A stretch of DNA of 64,000 nucleotides from the NCBI RefSeq assembly GCF_029625215.1, contig NZ_CP121197.1:2170001-2234000 (forward strand). Direction: 5' to 3'. The DNA comes from Aurantibacillus circumpalustris (GTDB taxonomy: Bacteria; Bacteroidota; Bacteroidia; B-17B0; Aurantibacillaceae). Below, piece after piece: positions 27,424 through 37,975 of the stretch. Under the pieces are notes generated by a model, which was not told the DNA's origin, did no database searches, and worked only from the letters and a program-made list of their open reading frames with translations. Position 1 is the first letter of the stretch; every line of letters starts with the position of its first letter. The position numbers and the translations under genes are program-made.

Positions 27424-27456
27424 GATGGAAAATGTAAAAGGGAATATGGAAAATGG
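27424..27456 (+). repeat. TGGAAAATG-family repeat, left flank of four-helix-bundle gene
   Basis: Purine-rich words GATGGAAAATG and ATATGGAAAATGG fill the gap between the DUF1365 start and the four-helix-bundle stop. Eleven bases (27446-27456) are the exact reverse complement of 27873-27883 on the other side of the gene. Confidence 0.7.
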
Positions 27457-27460
27457 TGGT

Positions 27461-27823
27461 TTATTCATTCTTGGATGATTTTTTTATTGCTGCGAAAATA
27501 TTTTTTAAATCATGAGACTCTTTAAGGAAGATTTCAAAATCCTTTTTATACTTAGGGTCTTCATATAATTCTGCCAGAACTCTCAACCAATAATGACTCT
27601 CTCTTGCTTCTTTATAACTAATGCCAATCTTATTCGTGAAATCTCTTTTAGATACAGCTCCCTGCGCCTCTTCATAATTTGCTCCTATTGAAATACTTGA
27701 TCTTCCAACCTGTAATTTTGGAATTTTATAAATGTAATCCTCAGGAAGTTTTTTTAGAAATTTCAAAGTATTTACACCGAAGTAAAATGTCCTATCTAAT
27801 AATTGTTGTGTTTTCTCGTTCAT
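27461..27823 (-). CDS. Four helix bundle protein (23S rRNA intervening-sequence S23-like), 120 aa
   Basis: Small, mostly helical and charged protein. It carries the family signature IPKLQVGRSSISIGANYEEAQ, then KIGISYKEARESHYWLRVL and a C-terminal helix with LKNIFAAI. Relatives are encoded inside intervening sequences of 23S rRNA in Leptospira and other bacteria, and are also scattered on chromosomes; their molecular function is not settled. Here the gene splits an otherwise conserved pair (FAD oxidoreductase / DUF1365) and is bracketed by inverted copies of a word-like repeat. It therefore looks like an insertion into the operon rather than an original member. Confidence 0.92.
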   Translation of the reverse strand: MNEKTQQLLDRTFYFGVNTLKFLKKLPEDYIYKIPKLQVGRSSISIGANYEEAQGAVSKRDFTNKIGISYKEARESHYWLRVLAELYEDPKYKKDFEIFLKESHDLKNIFAAIKKSSKNE

Positions 27824-27865
27824 TTGGGTCTATTTTAGGTTAAATTTAAATTTTAAAAAATAGCT

Positions 27866-27980
27866 ACATCATCCATTTTCCATTTTACCTTTTACATCAG
27901 CCATTTTGCCCATCTTCCTTTTGCAATTTTCCATTTTATTTTCACGCCCAACTTCCATCTTCCATTTTACATCTTACATT
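27866..27980 (-). repeat. TGGAAAATG-family repeat, right flank of four-helix-bundle gene
   Basis: About 115 bp built on the minus strand from degenerate words (AATGTAAGATG, TAAAATGGAAGATGG, AAAATGGAAAATGG). It is inverted relative to the left flank. It overlaps the last codons and the stop (27974-27976) of the FAD oxidoreductase gene. Confidence 0.7.
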
Positions 27981-29218
27981 CGCAGACACAATTCCACCGC
28001 GCTCTTAAAAGCGTCTTCATGAAAGCCGTAATTAAAATAGCTTCCACAAAAATAAAGTGGTCCGTTTTGGTTCAACAAAGGTAGTTTCTTTTGTGCATTA
28101 ATAGCAGGTAAATCAAATAGTGGGTGTTCGTAGTCAATTTCTCTTATAAGTTTATTTTTAGCAATACTATTTGGAAAGGCATTAATCGAAACAAAATAAT
28201 TTTTCTTTTTACTTACTCCTTGTAAGTTATTCATCCAATAAATAGTTGTCGGCAAAAGTTCTCTGTCAATCTCCTCGATTCGGTAATTCCAGCTACTCCA
28301 TGTTTTTTTATTTTTTGGCATCACTGATTCATCCGTATGCACTGTTGCAATATTTTTCTGGTATTTAAACGGACTTAAGAGACGTTTTTCATCAGCACTT
28401 GGTTCTGTCAAGATTTTTAAAGCTTGATCGGCATGACAAGCGAAAATCACCTTATCAAATTCTTTTTGTGTTCCATCTTTTAAAATAACGATCGCTTTTT
28501 TATCTTTTTTTGAGACGCTCACAACAGCATTATTGATCTGAATTTCATCTTTAAAAGGTTTGATTAGAATTTCTTTATACGATTCGCTCCCTTTTTCTAA
28601 AGTGTACCATTGGTGTTGCGTGTTTAAGCCTAAAAAGCCGTGGTTCTTAAAAAATCGAATGAGTGTTAAGGCAGGAAAGTCCAGCATCTTGTCCATCGGT
28701 GTACTCCAAACTGCAGAACTCATTGGCACTAAGTATTTCCAAAGCATCTCTTCACTAAATTTAAATTCCTTAATGAATTCTCTTAATGAATGATTTTCGT
28801 ACCGCTTGTCTTCAAGTATTTCTAAACTTATTTTATTAAATCTAGAAATTTCCATTAACATTTTAATGTATGAAATGTTGAAGATATTCTTGCGTTGTGC
28901 AAACAAACCGTTTATTCCCGAACTGCAGTATTCTAGTCCGGTAGGTTTGTACTGAACGCTAAAGGACATGTCTGTTTTTTTAATCGACGCTTTTATTTCA
29001 TCAAATAATTTTACGAGATTGGGATAGGTTTCAAAATTAAAAACCATAAAACCAGTATCCATAAACACATCTTTTCCATCTTCGTCAACGGCAACTGTAT
29101 TTGTGTGTCCTCCTATATAATCGTTCTGTTCAAAAATACTGAGTTCGTATTTTTTATGCAGGAAATGTGCGCAACCCATTCCTGCAATTCCTGTTCCTAT
29201 GATTGCTAACTTCTCCAT
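27974..29218 (-). CDS. FAD-dependent amine-oxidase-like oxidoreductase (COG2907 type), 414 aa
   Basis: Rossmann FAD-binding start LAIIGTGIAGMGCAHFL with GxGxxG at residues 8-13. It continues with YIGGHTNTV, the second nucleotide-contact motif FACHADQALKIL and a C-terminal FCGSYFNYGFHEDAF FAD motif. Cytosolic. Its start overlaps the stop of the upstream esterase gene by one base (TAATG), so translation is coupled. In other bacteria the DUF1365-Cfa-COG2907 trio is implicated in fatty-acid methylation and oxidation. The exact reaction here is inferred, not known. The repeat supplies its stop codon. Confidence 0.88.
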   Translation of the reverse strand: MEKLAIIGTGIAGMGCAHFLHKKYELSIFEQNDYIGGHTNTVAVDEDGKDVFMDTGFMVFNFETYPNLVKLFDEIKASIKKTDMSFSVQYKPTGLEYCSSGINGLFAQRKNIFNISYIKMLMEISRFNKISLEILEDKRYENHSLREFIKEFKFSEEMLWKYLVPMSSAVWSTPMDKMLDFPALTLIRFFKNHGFLGLNTQHQWYTLEKGSESYKEILIKPFKDEIQINNAVVSVSKKDKKAIVILKDGTQKEFDKVIFACHADQALKILTEPSADEKRLLSPFKYQKNIATVHTDESVMPKNKKTWSSWNYRIEEIDRELLPTTIYWMNNLQGVSKKKNYFVSINAFPNSIAKNKLIREIDYEHPLFDLPAINAQKKLPLLNQNGPLYFCGSYFNYGFHEDAFKSAVELCLRM

Positions 29219-30351
29219 TAATTTCTGGTCACTGAGTAAATAAATCGTTCTATACTAAAAGTTGTAATTTGGCCGCTGGGACCGTTAATAGTGTAATCGC
29301 AACCATGCGATGCCCACGGCAAGTTTAAAAAATAATGAGGCACTTTTTTTTCTTCTAGTTTTTTATCCAAATGAACGCTGTGAAAATAAGAAACCAGTGC
29401 GTCATGTGGCCCATGAATGAGTAGAGTAGGGGGTGAGTTCTCTTCCGCAAATTCAAAAGCACTTGCTTCATGATATTTTTGAGGAACGTCGTCAATTAAA
29501 CCGCCGAAATAATCCCTGAAAATTTGTTCAGTATTTAAGACTAATTTATTTGACCTAAATCTTGCACCCCAAACCATATCTGCTGGTCCGTAAAACGAAA
29601 CAACTCCTTTGATGTTTTGATTATTAAATGTGTAGGCTGCAACCAAAGCTATTTGTGCACCCGCTGATCTTCCCAATAAAACAAAATTAGTGGTATCAAT
29701 TTTTAAGTCCTCAGAATTATTTATTAAAAAGGCTAAAGCATCTTTTGTGTCCTCAACCTGTGAAGGTGATTTAAATTCAGGCGCCTTACGATAATTAATA
29801 GAGGCGACATGATAGCCTTTTTGCGACAAATAGTAGTTAAGGTCAGGTAACTGTTTGCTGTCGCCAGACGACCAGGATCCGCCATGAATGACTATTATGC
29901 AGGGATGCTTACCTTCTAATAAAGATGGATAAAAATCAATTTCGAGATTTTCATCTTCTGTTTTTTTATACACTAAAATTTGAGGTTCTGTTTTTTGAAA
30001 CCCTATTCCGGTAAGTAGTTTCAATAGTGAAAAAGGTTGTTTAAGGAAATCGTTTTTCTTTTGAAATGGAAAGTTTTTAGCAAGATCTTCTTCCAGATTT
30101 TTACCACGGCTATGAACTTCAAAAATCGGCAAACAATAAAATACAAGACTTATACTTGAAATAAAAATCACCACAATTTTATAATAATCGGCGTAAAAAC
30201 AAGATATTATGAATAAAGAAGTAATTGTTATAGGAATGTATGGAAACTCAATAGTTACAATTGATACTTTCCACAAAAAGTTTGTTGGTGCTTTAAAAAA
30301 AACCAAAAGAGAAATGAGAAATAAAAGTAATGCAATGACCAATCGCCACAT
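29218..30351 (-). CDS. Membrane-anchored alpha/beta hydrolase (esterase/lipase, HSL/BD-FAE-like), 377 aa
   Basis: About three N-terminal membrane helices (residues ~1-85) precede an alpha/beta-hydrolase domain. It has the oxyanion motif VIHGGSWSSGD, the nucleophile elbow GRSAG, the acid residue in HGPHDALV and the catalytic His in WASHGCDY. It probably hydrolyses a carboxyl ester at the membrane. It lies inside the lipid-modification cluster, one base from the next start on one side and one base after the methyltransferase on the other, so a lipid or acyl ester is the likely substrate. This enzyme is not a usual member of DUF1365 clusters that I know. Confidence 0.88.
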   Translation of the reverse strand: MWRLVIALLLFLISLLVFFKAPTNFLWKVSIVTIEFPYIPITITSLFIISCFYADYYKIVVIFISSISLVFYCLPIFEVHSRGKNLEEDLAKNFPFQKKNDFLKQPFSLLKLLTGIGFQKTEPQILVYKKTEDENLEIDFYPSLLEGKHPCIIVIHGGSWSSGDSKQLPDLNYYLSQKGYHVASINYRKAPEFKSPSQVEDTKDALAFLINNSEDLKIDTTNFVLLGRSAGAQIALVAAYTFNNQNIKGVVSFYGPADMVWGARFRSNKLVLNTEQIFRDYFGGLIDDVPQKYHEASAFEFAEENSPPTLLIHGPHDALVSYFHSVHLDKKLEEKKVPHYFLNLPWASHGCDYTINGPSGQITTFSIERFIYSVTRN

Positions 30352-30352
30352 A

Positions 30353-31381
30353 TTAATTTTTATTGAAAAGGTAGTGACTTACAATCCATTCTTCGCCATT
30401 ATTATAACCCCACAATTCGGCGCAAGCCATGTAAAATATACGCCAATAAACCCACCATTTAAGAGCATCTTTTTTGCCGTAAGTAATTTCAAAAATGGTC
30501 ATAATTTCTTTTTTATGCTTATCCATATTTTTCAACCAAGCCTCAGATGTTTTGCTGTAGTGCATGCCACTCACACGCCAATGTTTTTCTATACTTAAAT
30601 TTTCGTTAAAGTAAAGTAAAAGGTCATCACTAGGCATTATACCGCCCGTAAAAAAGTACTTGCTCATCCAATCTGTTTCATCTAACACTTCAAATTTGTA
30701 AGCTAGTTCTTTATGGGTGAAAATATGAACAAATAATTTCCCTTGCGGTTTTAGGGCATTAGCAACAAGTAACATGAGTTTTTTGTAATTGCGCATGTGC
30801 TCAAACATTTCAACCGAAACAACACGATCGTATGTATGTTCTGGTTTAAAATCATTCATGTTAACTGTGATTACAGTTAAGTTTGTAATCCCTCTTTGTG
30901 TTGCCTGATTGTCAATGTATGTTTTTTGCGTTTTCGAATTTGAAACAACTGTAATCCTACTTTTAGAATATCTGGCCGCCATAAATAGTGATAAAGAACC
31001 CCAACCACAACCAAGCTCTAGTACATCTTGACCATCTTGCAGCTCAGCACGCTCGCAAGTCAGTTCCAGCATGTCTTTTTCCGAGGTGTCAATAGTTGAG
31101 ACGCCTTCTTTCCAGTATCCACTACTGTATTTTAAATGTTTTCCGAGACAATGCTGATAGAATTCAGTCGGAACTTCGTAATGTTGTTCATTAGCCTCTT
31201 GTGTATTAATAGCAATAGGAGAACTTTTTAGTTCTTCAATTAATTGCATTAAATGTTTCTGATTGTTTTCTGGACTTCCTTTGTCCTCGTCTTTCAGGCG
31301 TTGTTTCAATAATTTTCTAATTCCAATGCGAATGAAAACATCCGGAATTTTATTTTTTTCTAAGAATGTATTATACCACAT
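30353..31381 (-). CDS. Second cyclopropane-synthase-like SAM methyltransferase, 342 aa
   Basis: SAM site VLELGCGWGS (121-129), SVEMFEHMRNY, LFVHIFTHK, FFTGGIMPS and a C-terminal YMACAELWGY segment. It lacks the full N-terminal domain of classical Cfa and resembles the coclaurine N-methyltransferase-like branch of the family. Ser87 (KYSSGYW) stands where E. coli Cfa has Cys139; the Glu-His and later His are kept. It follows DUF1295 in the same operon. Whether it methylates a lipid acyl chain or an amine cannot be told from sequence. Confidence 0.88.
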   Translation of the reverse strand: MWYNTFLEKNKIPDVFIRIGIRKLLKQRLKDEDKGSPENNQKHLMQLIEELKSSPIAINTQEANEQHYEVPTEFYQHCLGKHLKYSSGYWKEGVSTIDTSEKDMLELTCERAELQDGQDVLELGCGWGSLSLFMAARYSKSRITVVSNSKTQKTYIDNQATQRGITNLTVITVNMNDFKPEHTYDRVVSVEMFEHMRNYKKLMLLVANALKPQGKLFVHIFTHKELAYKFEVLDETDWMSKYFFTGGIMPSDDLLLYFNENLSIEKHWRVSGMHYSKTSEAWLKNMDKHKKEIMTIFEITYGKKDALKWWVYWRIFYMACAELWGYNNGEEWIVSHYLFNKN

Positions 31382-31392
31382 ACCTATTTTTT

Positions 31393-31480
31393 AATGGAAA
31401 ATGTAAGATGGTAGATGGAAAATGTAATTACTCTTTTTCATTGCTAGTTCACCTCTTTCATTTTCCCGTTTACATTTTAC
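31393..31480. repeat. TGGAAAATG-family repeat forming an imperfect hairpin
   Basis: Left arm words ATGGAAAATGTAAGATGG and GATGGAAAATG (31393-31428). The right arm has the complementary CATTTTCCC and TTTACATTTTAC (31457-31480). Arms match at about 18 of 25 positions. It fills the gap between two operon genes and includes the DUF1295 stop codon. Confidence 0.65.
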
Positions 31481-32256
31481 TTTTTTTTGAACCACGGAAC
31501 AAAAACACTTGTTGTCTTTTGATACTTTTTATAAGCTTCTCCTTTGCTTCGAATAGCTTGTTCTTCTGTCATAGGAATGCCGGTTACTTTAAAAATTAAA
31601 TAGCCAATAGAAATGGGGCAAATAACCGCTAACCAACCATAAGGACTTGGTAAGGCAAAAATCAAAACTGAAATCCATATTGAAAATTGAAAAAAGTAAT
31701 TCGGATGTCTTGAATAATTCCACAAACCGTATTGGCAGACTTTTCCTTTGTTTTCAGCTTGTTTTTTAAAGTGCTGCAATTGCCAGTCTGAAACACCTTC
31801 ACCAATAATGCAAAGAAACCAAAGTACGGCACCAATGTATTCGATTGTGGTAATTTCTGGAGATGTATTAAGAGCGATAATAAAAAACGGAATCGATAAC
31901 ATGACATTTGAAAATGCCTGCATTTGAAAAAAGAAAAAGAATTTTGTCTTGTTCCATTCTTCCCTTAATTTTTTATAACGGCCTTCTTCAACATCTAAAT
32001 GCGATCCAACTCTAATTGACAAGTAAATTCCAAGTCGAATGCTCCATAAAGCTGCTAGTGCACAAACAAGATTTTTTCTTTCGGAAAAACCATCAGCTAG
32101 CAACCAAATGATAATAGCGATTACCAAAAAATTGGTGGACCAAAAAATATCTACAATGCCATTATTTTTAATTTTTAAGGCCCAAAGCCAAATAAGGATC
32201 ATGATAATGGCCACTATTGCCCATGAAATTAAAGGTATTGATAAATATTGGCTCAT
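31477..32256 (-). CDS. DUF1295 membrane protein (steroid 5-alpha-reductase-like), 259 aa
   Basis: Seven or so membrane helices. The C-terminal motif GLWNYSRHPNYFFQFSIW and later EEQAIRSKGEAYKKYQ are typical of the DUF1295/isoprenylcysteine-methyltransferase-like superfamily, whose characterised members are membrane reductases or methyltransferases using NADPH or SAM. It is the first gene of the minus-strand lipid cluster. A reductase role in forming a saturated or methyl-branched chain is plausible by context but not shown. Confidence 0.88.
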   Translation of the reverse strand: MSQYLSIPLISWAIVAIIMILIWLWALKIKNNGIVDIFWSTNFLVIAIIIWLLADGFSERKNLVCALAALWSIRLGIYLSIRVGSHLDVEEGRYKKLREEWNKTKFFFFFQMQAFSNVMLSIPFFIIALNTSPEITTIEYIGAVLWFLCIIGEGVSDWQLQHFKKQAENKGKVCQYGLWNYSRHPNYFFQFSIWISVLIFALPSPYGWLAVICPISIGYLIFKVTGIPMTEEQAIRSKGEAYKKYQKTTSVFVPWFKKK

Positions 32257-32364
32257 GTTTAAACGATAAGTTAAGTAGCTATAACAATTCTAAGAAGAAT
32301 TAGTTCACGCGGTACACTTAAACTTACGAATAAAATCTTGAAATAGTTTTAAAAGAGAATAAAT

Positions 32365-33093
32365 CTATTTCTCTCCCGAATAAATTGCCGCAATACCAAA
32401 ACTAACAAGTTCAAAAGAGGTGTTCTTGTATTTAAGACTGTTTAGAATTTCTATGAATTTTTCATTATGAGGAAAAGCCTTTACACTTTCTGTCAAATAG
32501 GTGTAAGCTCTTGTATCTTTTGAAAATATTTTGCCAATAAATGGCGTTACTTTAGAAAAATAGAAATTGTAAAATCCTTTAATGAATGCGTTGCGGGGAT
32601 AAGAAAATTCGAGCACAACTAATTGCCCGCCTGGTTTCAGCATTCTATGTAAATTACTCAAACCTGCATTTAAATTCTGGAAATTACGAACTCCAAATCC
32701 AACAACAATCGCATCAAAACTATTGTCCGGAAAAAATATAGTTTCAGCATTACCGTTTTTTAAAGAAATTATAGAATCCAATTTCAGAACTTTTAATTTC
32801 TCTCTACCATACTTCATCATCCCGTCACTGATATCAATTCCAATAATGGATTCTGGATTTAATTTCGCGCATTCAATGGCAAAATCTCCAGTGCCTGTAG
32901 CAACATCTAATATTTTTTTTGGTTGTTTATCTTTTAAAAGTTTAACACATCTTTTTCTCCAGCCTCTGTGTATGCCTAAAGAAAGAATGCTATTTAAAAG
33001 GTCGTAACGTTTGGCGATGTTATCGAACATCAGCGCTACTTGTTCTTTTTTTTCGTCTTGTGTATTGTATGGTGTAACTGAATCATGCTTCAT
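32365..33093 (-). CDS. ubiE: Demethylmenaquinone methyltransferase UbiE/MenG, 242 aa
   Basis: Cytosolic or membrane-peripheral SAM methyltransferase for the last step of menaquinone synthesis. Family signatures: MFDNIAKRYDLLNSILSLG near residue 23, SAM site ILDVATGTGDFAIE, FGVRNFQNL and VVLEFSYPRN. Length is typical. It is separated from the lipid cluster by ~110 bp and preceded by the 36-bp CACAGAG element, the left-hand copy of which begins right at its start codon. Confidence 0.95.
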   Translation of the reverse strand: MKHDSVTPYNTQDEKKEQVALMFDNIAKRYDLLNSILSLGIHRGWRKRCVKLLKDKQPKKILDVATGTGDFAIECAKLNPESIIGIDISDGMMKYGREKLKVLKLDSIISLKNGNAETIFFPDNSFDAIVVGFGVRNFQNLNAGLSNLHRMLKPGGQLVVLEFSYPRNAFIKGFYNFYFSKVTPFIGKIFSKDTRAYTYLTESVKAFPHNEKFIEILNSLKYKNTSFELVSFGIAAIYSGEK

Positions 33094-33132
33094 TTTAACA
33101 CAGAGTTTGAGAGTAAATGAGGAGCACAGAGA
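33093..33132 (+). repeat. 36-bp CACAGAG element, left copy
   Basis: Unit 33097-33132: AACACAGAG, N4, AGAG, then an A/G-rich stretch with GAGG, ending CACAGAGA. The outer 13 bp (33093-33105) are the exact reverse complement of 33825-33837. Confidence 0.75.
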
Positions 33133-33246
33133 CTTCTCTTGATGATACGATAATAAGAAAATTATTAAAATTAGATTTCATTAGTTAATTCGAGACTAGG
33201 TCATATTAATTTACAAAAAACATTAAAGAAAATTTTACAGAATCGT

Positions 33247-33648
33247 TTAATTATTAAGGTCTCCATTAATTCTTCTTCTAATTCCGTCTTTTAGCAATTC
33301 GACGTTAAAGTTAATAAGTAAACCTAGTTTTTTGTTTGAAAGCTTTAAATATGTCATTAATTGAGCTTCATGTATAGGTTGAAGATCTTCAATGGATTTA
33401 ATTTCTAGTATTAACACATTGTTGACTAATATGTCAAGTATAAAATCTTTATCTAATTTTTCTTTTCTAAAATAAACTGGAAGCTTAACTTGATGTTTTA
33501 CGTCTAACCCTTCTTCACGCAATAATTTTATGAGGCATATTTCGTATACTGATTCAAGAAGACCGGGTCCAAGCTCTTTATGTACTTCTATTGCACACTT
33601 AATTACTAGTTTTGTCAGCTCATTATATTCGACTTCTGTGTATTTCAT
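33247..33648 (-). CDS. GxxExxY protein (PD-(D/E)xK nuclease-like fold), 133 aa
   Basis: Signature GPGLLESVYE near residue 27, then FRKEKLDKDFILDILVNNVLILEIKS and LMTYLKLSNKKLGLLINF. These match the GxxExxY family: a short protein with acidic and Lys residues (DFILD, LEIKS) arranged as in restriction-endonuclease-like folds. No activity has been established that I know. It stands alone in a 770-bp gap between ubiE and the heptokinase gene, bracketed by one upright and two inverted copies of a 36-bp repeat. Confidence 0.92.
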   Translation of the reverse strand: MKYTEVEYNELTKLVIKCAIEVHKELGPGLLESVYEICLIKLLREEGLDVKHQVKLPVYFRKEKLDKDFILDILVNNVLILEIKSIEDLQPIHEAQLMTYLKLSNKKLGLLINFNVELLKDGIRRRINGDLNN

Positions 33649-33720
33649 TCTAATAAGTAATACCTTAGAGTTGGATTATAAAACACTTTTTCATTCTTAG
33701 TTTAGTTAAAATTAAGATTT

Positions 33721-33756
33721 TCTCAATGAACATTTTAATCTCTGTTTCTCAGCGTT
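33721..33756 (-). repeat. 36-bp CACAGAG element, middle copy (inverted)
   Basis: On the minus strand: AACGCTGAG, N4, AGAG, ATTAA, ending CATTGAGA; same 36-bp length and block layout as the other two copies, more diverged. Confidence 0.65.
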
Positions 33757-33797
33757 CAATTTGAAAGGTAAATCCTACTAGTTGGTAGTATTATTTT

Positions 33798-33837
33798 TCT
33801 CTGTGAACCTCTTAATCTCTTTTTCTCTGTGTTAAAA
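33798..33837 (-). repeat. 36-bp CACAGAG element, right copy (inverted)
   Basis: Unit 33798-33833, on the minus strand AACACAGAG, N4, AGAG, then GAGG and CACAGAGA. It matches the left copy at 26 of 36 positions with no gaps. Confidence 0.75.
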
Positions 33838-37895: not shown

Positions 37896-37975
37896 ATATG
37901 TAAGATGGAAAATGTAAAATGGAAGATGTCCGGATAACATTTTCCGTTTTCTATCTACCATTTTCCATTCGTATT
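37896..37975. repeat. TGGAAAATG-family repeat forming a hairpin centred on TCCGGA
   Basis: Left arm words GTAAGATGGAAAATGTAAAATGG and right arm ACATTTTCC, ACCATTTTCCATTC, with TCCGGA (37929-37934) at the centre. It fills the gap between the cytochrome gene's stop and the hflX start. Confidence 0.65.

Follow-up and report, generated by a model that had tools for sequence, protein, structure and literature searches.

In the system of repetitive extragenic palindromic (REP) sequences and REP-associated tyrosine transposases (RAYT, or TnpA-REP), a chromosomal gene is bracketed by inverted copies of a repeat, and this repeat spreads in the form of solo palindromes and of tandem arrays as well. A second described arrangement is the intervening sequence (IVS) of rRNA genes. 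In the available part of PMC4990558, the Coxiella IVS is about 430 nt long, with tandem GACAGAT heptamers preceding an S23p open reading frame (ORF); IVSs are excised by RNase III, older papers proposed that they are mobile or remnants of transposition, and a solved Xanthomonas relative of the S23p protein, IVP, is a pentamer. Intergenic heptamers have been described as well: the available part of PMC4692102 gives GGGAATC for Xanthomonas (inverted pairs: 70 in Xcc, 75 in Xac) and GGGGA(C/T)T for Nostoc, and that of PMC4679880 gives TAACTGA for Beggiatoaceae. The former part of text does not contain the words "four helix bundle" or "23S", and the latter does not contain "23S", "S23", "four helix" or "GxxExxY". 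Here we describe two cassettes, one around an IVP gene and one around a GxxExxY gene, in 64,000 nt of Aurantibacillus circumpalustris DNA (contig NZ_CP121197.1, positions 2,170,001 to 2,234,000; "the window" denotes this whole stretch). Each probably belongs to a family of small mobile DNA elements, and the two families are parallel to each other.

The source genome (4.6 Mb, a single contig) carries six GxxExxY and seven IVP genes. In the window, one gene of each type is flanked by inverted, imperfect arrays (Table 1); the IVP cassette pair 27425-27456/27873-27904 is 84% complementary, and the GxxExxY cassette pair 33093-33132/33798-33837 is 75% complementary. The initial annotation of this DNA had placed each gene between inverted copies of its own repeat family, had noted solo hairpins of the first family, and had proposed a general class of repeat-bracketed genes. 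The direct and inverted repeats were found as described, the solo hairpins lie at 31393-31482 and 37898-37969, and the proposal of a general class was borne out by the following comparisons.

IVP and GxxExxY cassettes are confirmed as a general class spanning many bacterial phyla and, for GxxExxY, also archaea. Arms were scored by the best local match between the upstream flank and the reverse complement of the downstream flank, with a threshold of 28. Across the 13 copies in the source genome, an element's own arms average 32.1 against 20.9 for cross-pairs, and the window copies score 40 and 35. The relatives comprise the best-matching loci plus 80 hand-picked stretches from those listings, and are not a random draw; 76 IVP and 76 GxxExxY loci had enough flank for scoring. 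Matched arms are present in 47/76 IVP and 57/76 GxxExxY loci, compared with 38/947 other ORFs and with 12 of the 233 control ORFs of 80-200 aa. This control set is conservative because a few high-scoring control ORFs adjoin cassettes or solo hairpins.

The search for distant GxxExxY loci used two patterns, LGPGLLES[VA] and [PD][VI]H[ELH][AK][QT][LIT][LM]TY, so this set is biased to a conserved subset. From the best 80 of at least 586 confirmed stretches, 3 were dropped for short flanks, and 54 of the remaining 77 reach 28, against 8.8% of cross-element pairs and a fraction of 0.000 for shuffled flanks. Distant IVP loci were taken one per genome (30 loci, from 33 matching genomes among 49 chosen for carrying GxxExxY); 3 were dropped for short flanks, and 21 of the 27 scored reach 28, against 2.9% of cross-element pairs. 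Phylum labels in both sets were assigned by hand. GxxExxY genes with arms occur in Methanosarcinales and Methanothrix archaea (2/3 archaeal loci), and examples in the distant set also come from Cyanobacteria, Chloroflexi, Proteobacteria, Planctomycetes, Verrucomicrobia and Acidobacteria. No IVP match turned up in any of the three archaeal genomes that the search covered.

The arms are gene-type specific, with an element-specific dialect common to both arms. IVP arms have a 7-nt period: at lag 7 their autocorrelation reaches 0.45 among relatives and 0.53 among distant phyla, over a background of about 0.28. Both flanks show this period in 52 of 104 IVP elements, compared with 4 at period 6, 9 at period 8 and 0-3 at periods 5, 9, 10 or 11. 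The aligned IVP unit is nnnnnAG (A 0.74, G 0.78). It holds 1.88 bits of information, whereas a null in which the columns of each unit were placed in random order had a mean of 1.39 and a maximum of 1.46 (0/60 as high). GxxExxY arms consist of C(A/G)CnnAG units and short linkers, from Bacteroidota to archaea. Relatives have 1.83 and 2.41 of these CRCnnAG units per flank and distant loci have 2.66 and 3.03; on the opposite strand the numbers are 0.46/0.45 and 0.87/1.25, respectively. In IVP flanks they stay at the shuffled level (0.19 and 0.10; shuffles 0.23-0.45), and the specificity of repeat family to gene type, which the initial annotation had set as a test, stands. An exception is a GxxExxY subfamily at a junction next to DUF1365, which has ATTCGTA-type arms. 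The nn bases vary among GxxExxY elements and agree within an element's own arms (0.55 vs 0.17 permuted in 41 elements; 0.46 vs 0.19 permuted in 57 distant elements), and 0/1000 permutations reach the observed value in each set.

Dialect also follows protein relatedness, clearly for GxxExxY and weakly for IVP. For this comparison, we removed pairs whose flanking DNA was similar (12 IVP and 32 GxxExxY pairs, among those above 35% protein identity), locus L339 was left out, and one retained IVP pair comes from a single locus (L109). Among 53 relatives, GxxExxY arm similarity tracks protein similarity with a Mantel r of 0.47 (0/999 permutations) and a Spearman coefficient of 0.35. For 63 IVP elements the Mantel r is 0.13 (0/999), with likeness appearing only from about 50% identity upward. 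TCAGGAG arms are common to an acidobacterial and a cyanobacterial IVP element (L350 and L351) whose proteins are 64% identical.

The closest view of insertion comes from plasmids, where 30 records carry IVP and 8 carry GxxExxY; junctions there were judged by eye from the sequence. Related cyanobacterial plasmids (~90-98% identical) differ at five sites by the presence of an IVP element. Site 1 is filled in the Trichormus ATCC 29413 and Scytonema NIES-4073 plasmids, with GTAAT on both sides of the element, and empty in the 97-98% identical plasmids of Microchaete NIES-3275 and Aulosira NIES-50. Site 2 (90-95% identical) is filled in the Nostoc plasmids pNsp_a, pC052_D and pNPM1 and empty in pNsp_c and two others; in two of its three filled plasmids, TTCTA stands at either end of the element. 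At site 3 (~90-95% identical), pNsp_c is filled and six related plasmids are empty, three of them with an overlapping TAATG; the flanks TAATG/TTATG form an imperfect duplication. Sites 4 and 5 are also found in filled and empty states, and their duplications are unreadable because the empty and filled plasmids are only ~90-93% alike; the site 5 element lies ~12 codons inside the 3' end of a gene. Target duplications of ~5 bp are thus present at two of the five IVP sites and imperfect at a third. Sites 1, 2 and 5 are three different host sites, yet their IVPs are 79-83% identical and share a TCAG(G/A)AG dialect. By eye, locus L369 is a deletion derivative, and L371:584-1148 (pNPM1, site 2) holds a broken IVP ORF with a further heptamer hairpin inside. 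Overall, it seems fairly likely that IVP and GxxExxY elements move.

A separate plasmid, Nostoc edaphicum pNe_5, carries an IVP gene between two ribonucleotide reductase genes (L362:2498-2866), on the opposite strand from them and unlike the usual co-direction. A search for the empty site of this nrd element gave no other record.

On chromosomes, the cassettes occupy junctions that are empty in other genomes. Each window cassette fills almost all of the space from one gene's stop codon to the next start, and the 5' arm of the IVP cassette starts at the upstream gene's stop codon. This IVP cassette lies between protein genes, outside any rRNA gene; no Rfam family reached its gathering threshold within the window, and 75 IVP genes of relatives are flanked by ORFs on either side. 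From their translations, we take the neighbours of the IVP cassette to be an FAD amine oxidase and a DUF1365 gene, and those of the GxxExxY cassette to be a sugar kinase and a UbiE-like methyltransferase. Across 19 genus genomes, the amine oxidase/DUF1365 junction is empty in 6 (genes abutting or overlapping), holds IVP in 3 and GxxExxY in 5, and in the rest holds a degraded GxxExxY (1), solo hairpins of other families (2), a short spacer (1) or unrelated DNA (1). The kinase/UbiE junction was sampled as 30 loci from the 40 genomes with a match: 6 are exactly empty, their genes overlapping in TAATG, and 1 is almost empty; GxxExxY is present in 7, with fragments in 2, and solo hairpins in 2; 10 have short spacers and 2 lack the kinase. 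The degraded copies in genomes G017, G009 and G034 and the DUF1365-junction IVPs of G018 and G006 were called by eye. For GxxExxY, presence and absence at one site were seen only between species.

Both gene types can use one site, with 4 of 17 homologous-junction clusters holding both (153 distinct elements entered), and by eye the arms at one site may carry similar units in a different order. The cassette layout recurs in other copies with different repeat sequences. The initial annotation had further suggested interchangeable cargo. In the sense of freely swapped arms this is not supported, given the gene-type specificity of the arms: sites are shared and arms are not (CRCnnAG in IVP flanks 0.19 vs 0.23 shuffled).

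Placement relative to genes was measured on co-directional elements with an arm score of at least 24 and gaps no longer than 350 nt, L339 left out. The distance from the arm to the upstream stop has a median of 0 nt for IVP (36/39 within 20 nt) and 2 nt for GxxExxY (25/32), and that to the next start a median of 7 nt (32/39) and 12 nt (20/32), respectively. The upstream neighbour is co-directional for 73/75 IVP genes, 59/69 GxxExxY genes and ~80% of 707 other ORFs. Genes on both sides share the direction for 85% of IVP genes, against 62% for both GxxExxY and other ORFs, which makes the operon bias a feature of IVP. Several other IVP genes of the source genome presumably sit inside core operons (such as suf, sdh, etf and nuo; judged by eye).

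Gene-less copies of the repeats exist too, as the initial annotation expected, with motif matches in the source genome and in genus genomes. The stem motif AACCRCNNAGN{0,2}CRCNNAG has 88 matches in the source genome, against 0 for a reversed-pattern control. There are 0-3 matches in each of 11 genomes without GxxExxY and a median of 7 in the 49 genomes with it, and GxxExxY count correlates with motif count (rho 0.57 overall, 0.71 within the genus). Twenty motif regions of the source genome were examined, and 17 have no ORF of at least 100 aa over the motifs; of the others, L317 has an ORF whose end overlaps a single motif by 2 nt, and open frames cross tandem hairpin arrays in L318 and L321. 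Some solo hairpins in these regions sit between convergent genes. Among 66 of the 88 matches checked by eye, inverted pairs with a gene inside enclose only GxxExxY (two cases). The IVP-type family of the window has 25 matches in the source genome (reversed control 1) and is present in 13 of 40 genus genomes; its two solo hairpins in the window have z-scores of -2.4 and -2.8, in order of position, when folded as single-stranded DNA.

Two tandem series of CRCnnAG hairpins stand out in the source genome, with ~160 bp per unit at L318:1501-2157 (G000:C1:570867-571523) and ~105 bp per unit at L321:1501-2023 (G000:C1:1145884-1146406), and a similar 102-bp series lies at G030:C1:5445282-5445503. Genome G018 (20 contigs) has 92 CRCnnAG stem motif matches, mostly in a CACATAG dialect among the matches listed, and its GxxExxY elements L131 and L147 carry the same dialect. 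The set looks like a burst of one dialect.

Table 1. Cassettes and solo hairpins, with positions counted from the first letter of the window
Feature	Position	Strand	Details
3' arm of IVP cassette	27425..27456	-	heptamer units, (A/G)ATG(G/T)AA family
IVP / S23p four-helix-bundle gene, 120 aa	27461..27823	-	PF05635; PDB 2rld homologue
5' arm of IVP cassette	27867..27979	-	copies 27867-27897, 27911-27941, 27949-27979
Solo hairpin, heptamer family of IVP cassette, gene-less	31393..31482	.	fills gap between two co-directional genes
3' arm of GxxExxY cassette	33093..33132	-	CACAGAG-type units
GxxExxY gene, 133 aa	33247..33648	-	PF13366, PD-(D/E)XK nuclease fold; D72, E82, K84 conserved
Inner copy, 5' arm of GxxExxY cassette	33718..33759	-	repeat search
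Outer 5' arm of GxxExxY cassette	33795..33837	-	repeat search
Second solo hairpin, IVP-type heptamer family	37898..37969	.	fills gap between two co-directional genes

Three further stretches among the relatives deserve mention. Beside an IVP element, a 452-aa ORF (L086:6397-7755) was the top control for inverted flanks (heptamer-like TCTCGCAACTGGAAAC) and is possibly a larger gene caught between arms. The 120-aa gene at L114:8704-9066, which looks like a REP-associated (IS200-type) transposase, is itself flanked by inverted repeats. In L103:5896-8309 (genome G057), a GxxExxY and an IVP gene lie ~1.7 kb apart within one 14-kb stretch.

The two window proteins matched only PF05635 (IVP, E 1.9e-12, above the cut-off) and PF13366 (GxxExxY, E 2.5e-41) in Pfam, with no HUH Y1 transposase. 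D72, E82, K84, Q96 and Y100 of GxxExxY are invariant in 41/41 sequences, giving a conserved D, ExK, QxxxY pattern. The structural model (pLDDT 96) is nearest SSO0001, which we take to be a Cas4 (Z 9.3, rmsd 4.4, 101 aligned), and lambda exonuclease is among the first Foldseek rows. From this model, GxxExxY is predicted to be a compact Cas4/RecB-like nuclease. A sequence search of the PDB gave no match for GxxExxY. Carriage of GxxExxY by phages was considered and rejected, as the phage collection contained no match.

We propose that each element consists of one gene, encoding either IVP or the GxxExxY nuclease, with inverted arrays of ~7-nt units at its two ends. The encoded protein would recognise its own array, as the correlation between dialect and protein suggests. 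The Cas4/RecB-like GxxExxY nuclease may cut at the paired arms, while the IVP pentamer may hold the arms as host enzymes make a staggered insertion. The stop-start placement would be a survivor pattern of low-harm insertions, those of IVP borrowing operon transcription, and solo hairpins could arise via internal deletion or mobilisation in trans. We place these events at the DNA level because there is no RNA-pairing signature and no resident reverse transcriptase is needed.

Several observations weigh against this proposal. No transposition was observed, and only three IVP sites gave readable target duplications; among the filled site 2 plasmids, pC052_D has TTCTG on the right and pNsp_a is missing one base beside the site. 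For GxxExxY, no target duplication was resolved in the comparisons, which were between different species. A considerable share of loci score below threshold (29/76 IVP and 19/76 GxxExxY in relatives; 23/77 GxxExxY and 6/27 IVP in the distant sets). Within the source genome, L003 has no 5' arm, with repeats 3' of the gene, the copies L007, L009 and L011 score 20, 17 and 24, within or near the cross-pair range, and L003, L007 and L009 have no pair above cross-pairs. Wrong-strand CRCnnAG units in distant GxxExxY flanks exceed shuffles (0.87 and 1.25 vs 0.45). The correlation of motif with GxxExxY count falls to 0.35 once corrected for genome size (that with IVP is then 0.06); uncorrected and within the genus, the motif correlates with IVP count as well (rho 0.43, p 0.008), and genomes G041 and G057 have seven GxxExxY genes and one motif match each. 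The IVP dialect shows a Spearman rho of 0.03 with the protein (p 0.22), the Mantel r alone being significant. On the protein side, Foldseek gave no PDB match to the GxxExxY model at E 0.001 or better, and we know of no catalytic site or residues in IVP.

The cassettes could instead be intervening sequences of mRNA, co-transcribed with the operon, their arms pairing so that RNase III excises the gene and RNA pairing keeps the arms complementary. We regard this as unlikely. The layout is that of the rRNA IVS, with an S23p ORF, terminal inverted repeats and heptamers upstream (PMC4990558, available part), and the high proportion of IVP genes with an upstream gene on the same strand fits it as well. 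RNA pairing, however, predicts more G.U pairs than A.C mismatches on the sense strand, and the counts in arm mismatches are 115 vs 109 for IVP and 87 vs 124 for GxxExxY in relatives, and 111 vs 138 for GxxExxY and 36 vs 46 for IVP (without L339) in the distant sets; cross-element alignments give similar ratios. As no set of the four shows a G.U excess over A.C, RNA pairing is not what keeps the arms matched. The transcript of the window IVP cassette folds no better than shuffles (z -0.75), and together with the G.U counts this leads us to reject RNA-level stem maintenance as the main force. Also contrary to it are the reordered units of same-site arms, the solo hairpins between convergent genes and the IVP gene antisense to its neighbours. 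The shared propagation or RNA-processing strategy suggested by the initial annotation therefore divides: propagation is likely, given the empty, filled and solo-hairpin junctions and the plasmid insertions, and RNA processing finds no backing in the G.U counts or the fold. As a whole, that interpretation is partly supported.

IVP is homologous to Avd, the accessory protein of diversity-generating retroelements (DGRs). A DGR paper (PMC10053308) reportedly mentions PF05635. In a retroelement reading, IVP might bring in a reverse transcriptase acting in trans, and the hairpin RNA would be copied into new sites; short target duplications also fit such target-primed copying. Genomes with a match to RVT_1 average more IVP (4.67 vs 3.10) and GxxExxY genes (4.39 vs 2.29), in counts that are raw for genome size. 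We nevertheless consider it very unlikely: the G.U signature of an RNA-selected stem is missing, and 12 of the 20 genomes with at least five IVP genes have no RVT_1 match, so a resident reverse transcriptase is not needed, and its role as a requirement is not supported. The source genome has one RVT_1 match (1,324,919-1,325,437), more than 190 kb from each of its seven IVP genes. We give even less credence to a reading in which the genes are accessory or regulatory and inherited vertically, their hairpins act as terminators or mRNA-stability elements, and the repeats spread on their own. The arms do lie at gene ends (for IVP right at the upstream stop) and the solo motifs are largely intergenic, yet presence is patchy, exact empty sites exist in relatives and plasmids, degraded copies are seen by eye (G017, G009, L369, L371), dialect is tied to protein, and insertions are already seen in plasmids. 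Chance similarity of low-complexity AT-rich flanks can practically be dismissed; single arms are weak and imperfect, as in the window, but the shuffled flanks of distant genes, the other ORFs and the reversed-motif control already refute it.

Taking the DNA-element reading further, IVP and GxxExxY cassettes may belong to an unnamed cross-domain class of minimal mobile elements, in which one small protein (a Cas4-like nuclease or an S23p four-helix protein) would read its own, evolving dialect of 7-nt units (CRCnnAG or nnnnnAG) in terminal inverted arrays, with the rRNA IVS and many orphan intergenic heptamers as members or remains. We hold this wider claim tentatively, at slightly less than an even chance. 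It would offer one explanation for the origin of the rRNA IVS, for the over-represented intergenic heptamers of bacteria (PMC4692102, available part), and for what the GxxExxY and four-helix-bundle genes do, which are widespread and of unknown function. A protein-repeat code is a further prediction, in which each protein should prefer its own dialect.

Titles and abstract openings in the literature searched, whose coverage excludes most subscription journals, gave no account of these cassettes. The closest known system is the 23S rRNA IVS of Leptospira and Coxiella, which shares the protein family, size, inverted termini and heptamers of the IVP elements. Unlike it, the IVP elements described here lie between protein genes in several copies per genome with different dialects, and they also occur as solo hairpins and as insertions against empty sites. 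The intergenic heptamers of Xanthomonas, Nostoc and Beggiatoaceae resemble IVP arms in being heptameric and intergenic. In contrast to DGR Avd, the IVP genes of the source genome have no reverse transcriptase adjacent to them. GxxExxY shares its modelled fold and D...ExK residues with Cas4, RecB and lambda exonuclease, and differs from these nucleases in its length of 133 aa and its lack of a sequence match in the PDB. As in REP/RAYT, GxxExxY is bracketed by inverted repeats that have solo copies and are tied to the presence of the gene, and for IVP the likeness extends to the solo copies only. The enzyme here is a PD-(D/E)XK or four-helix protein instead of an HUH Y1 transposase, and the cassette arms are arrays of ~7-nt units with element-specific dialects. 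Like transposable elements with terminal inverted repeats, IVP elements are present or absent at one and the same site in close plasmids.

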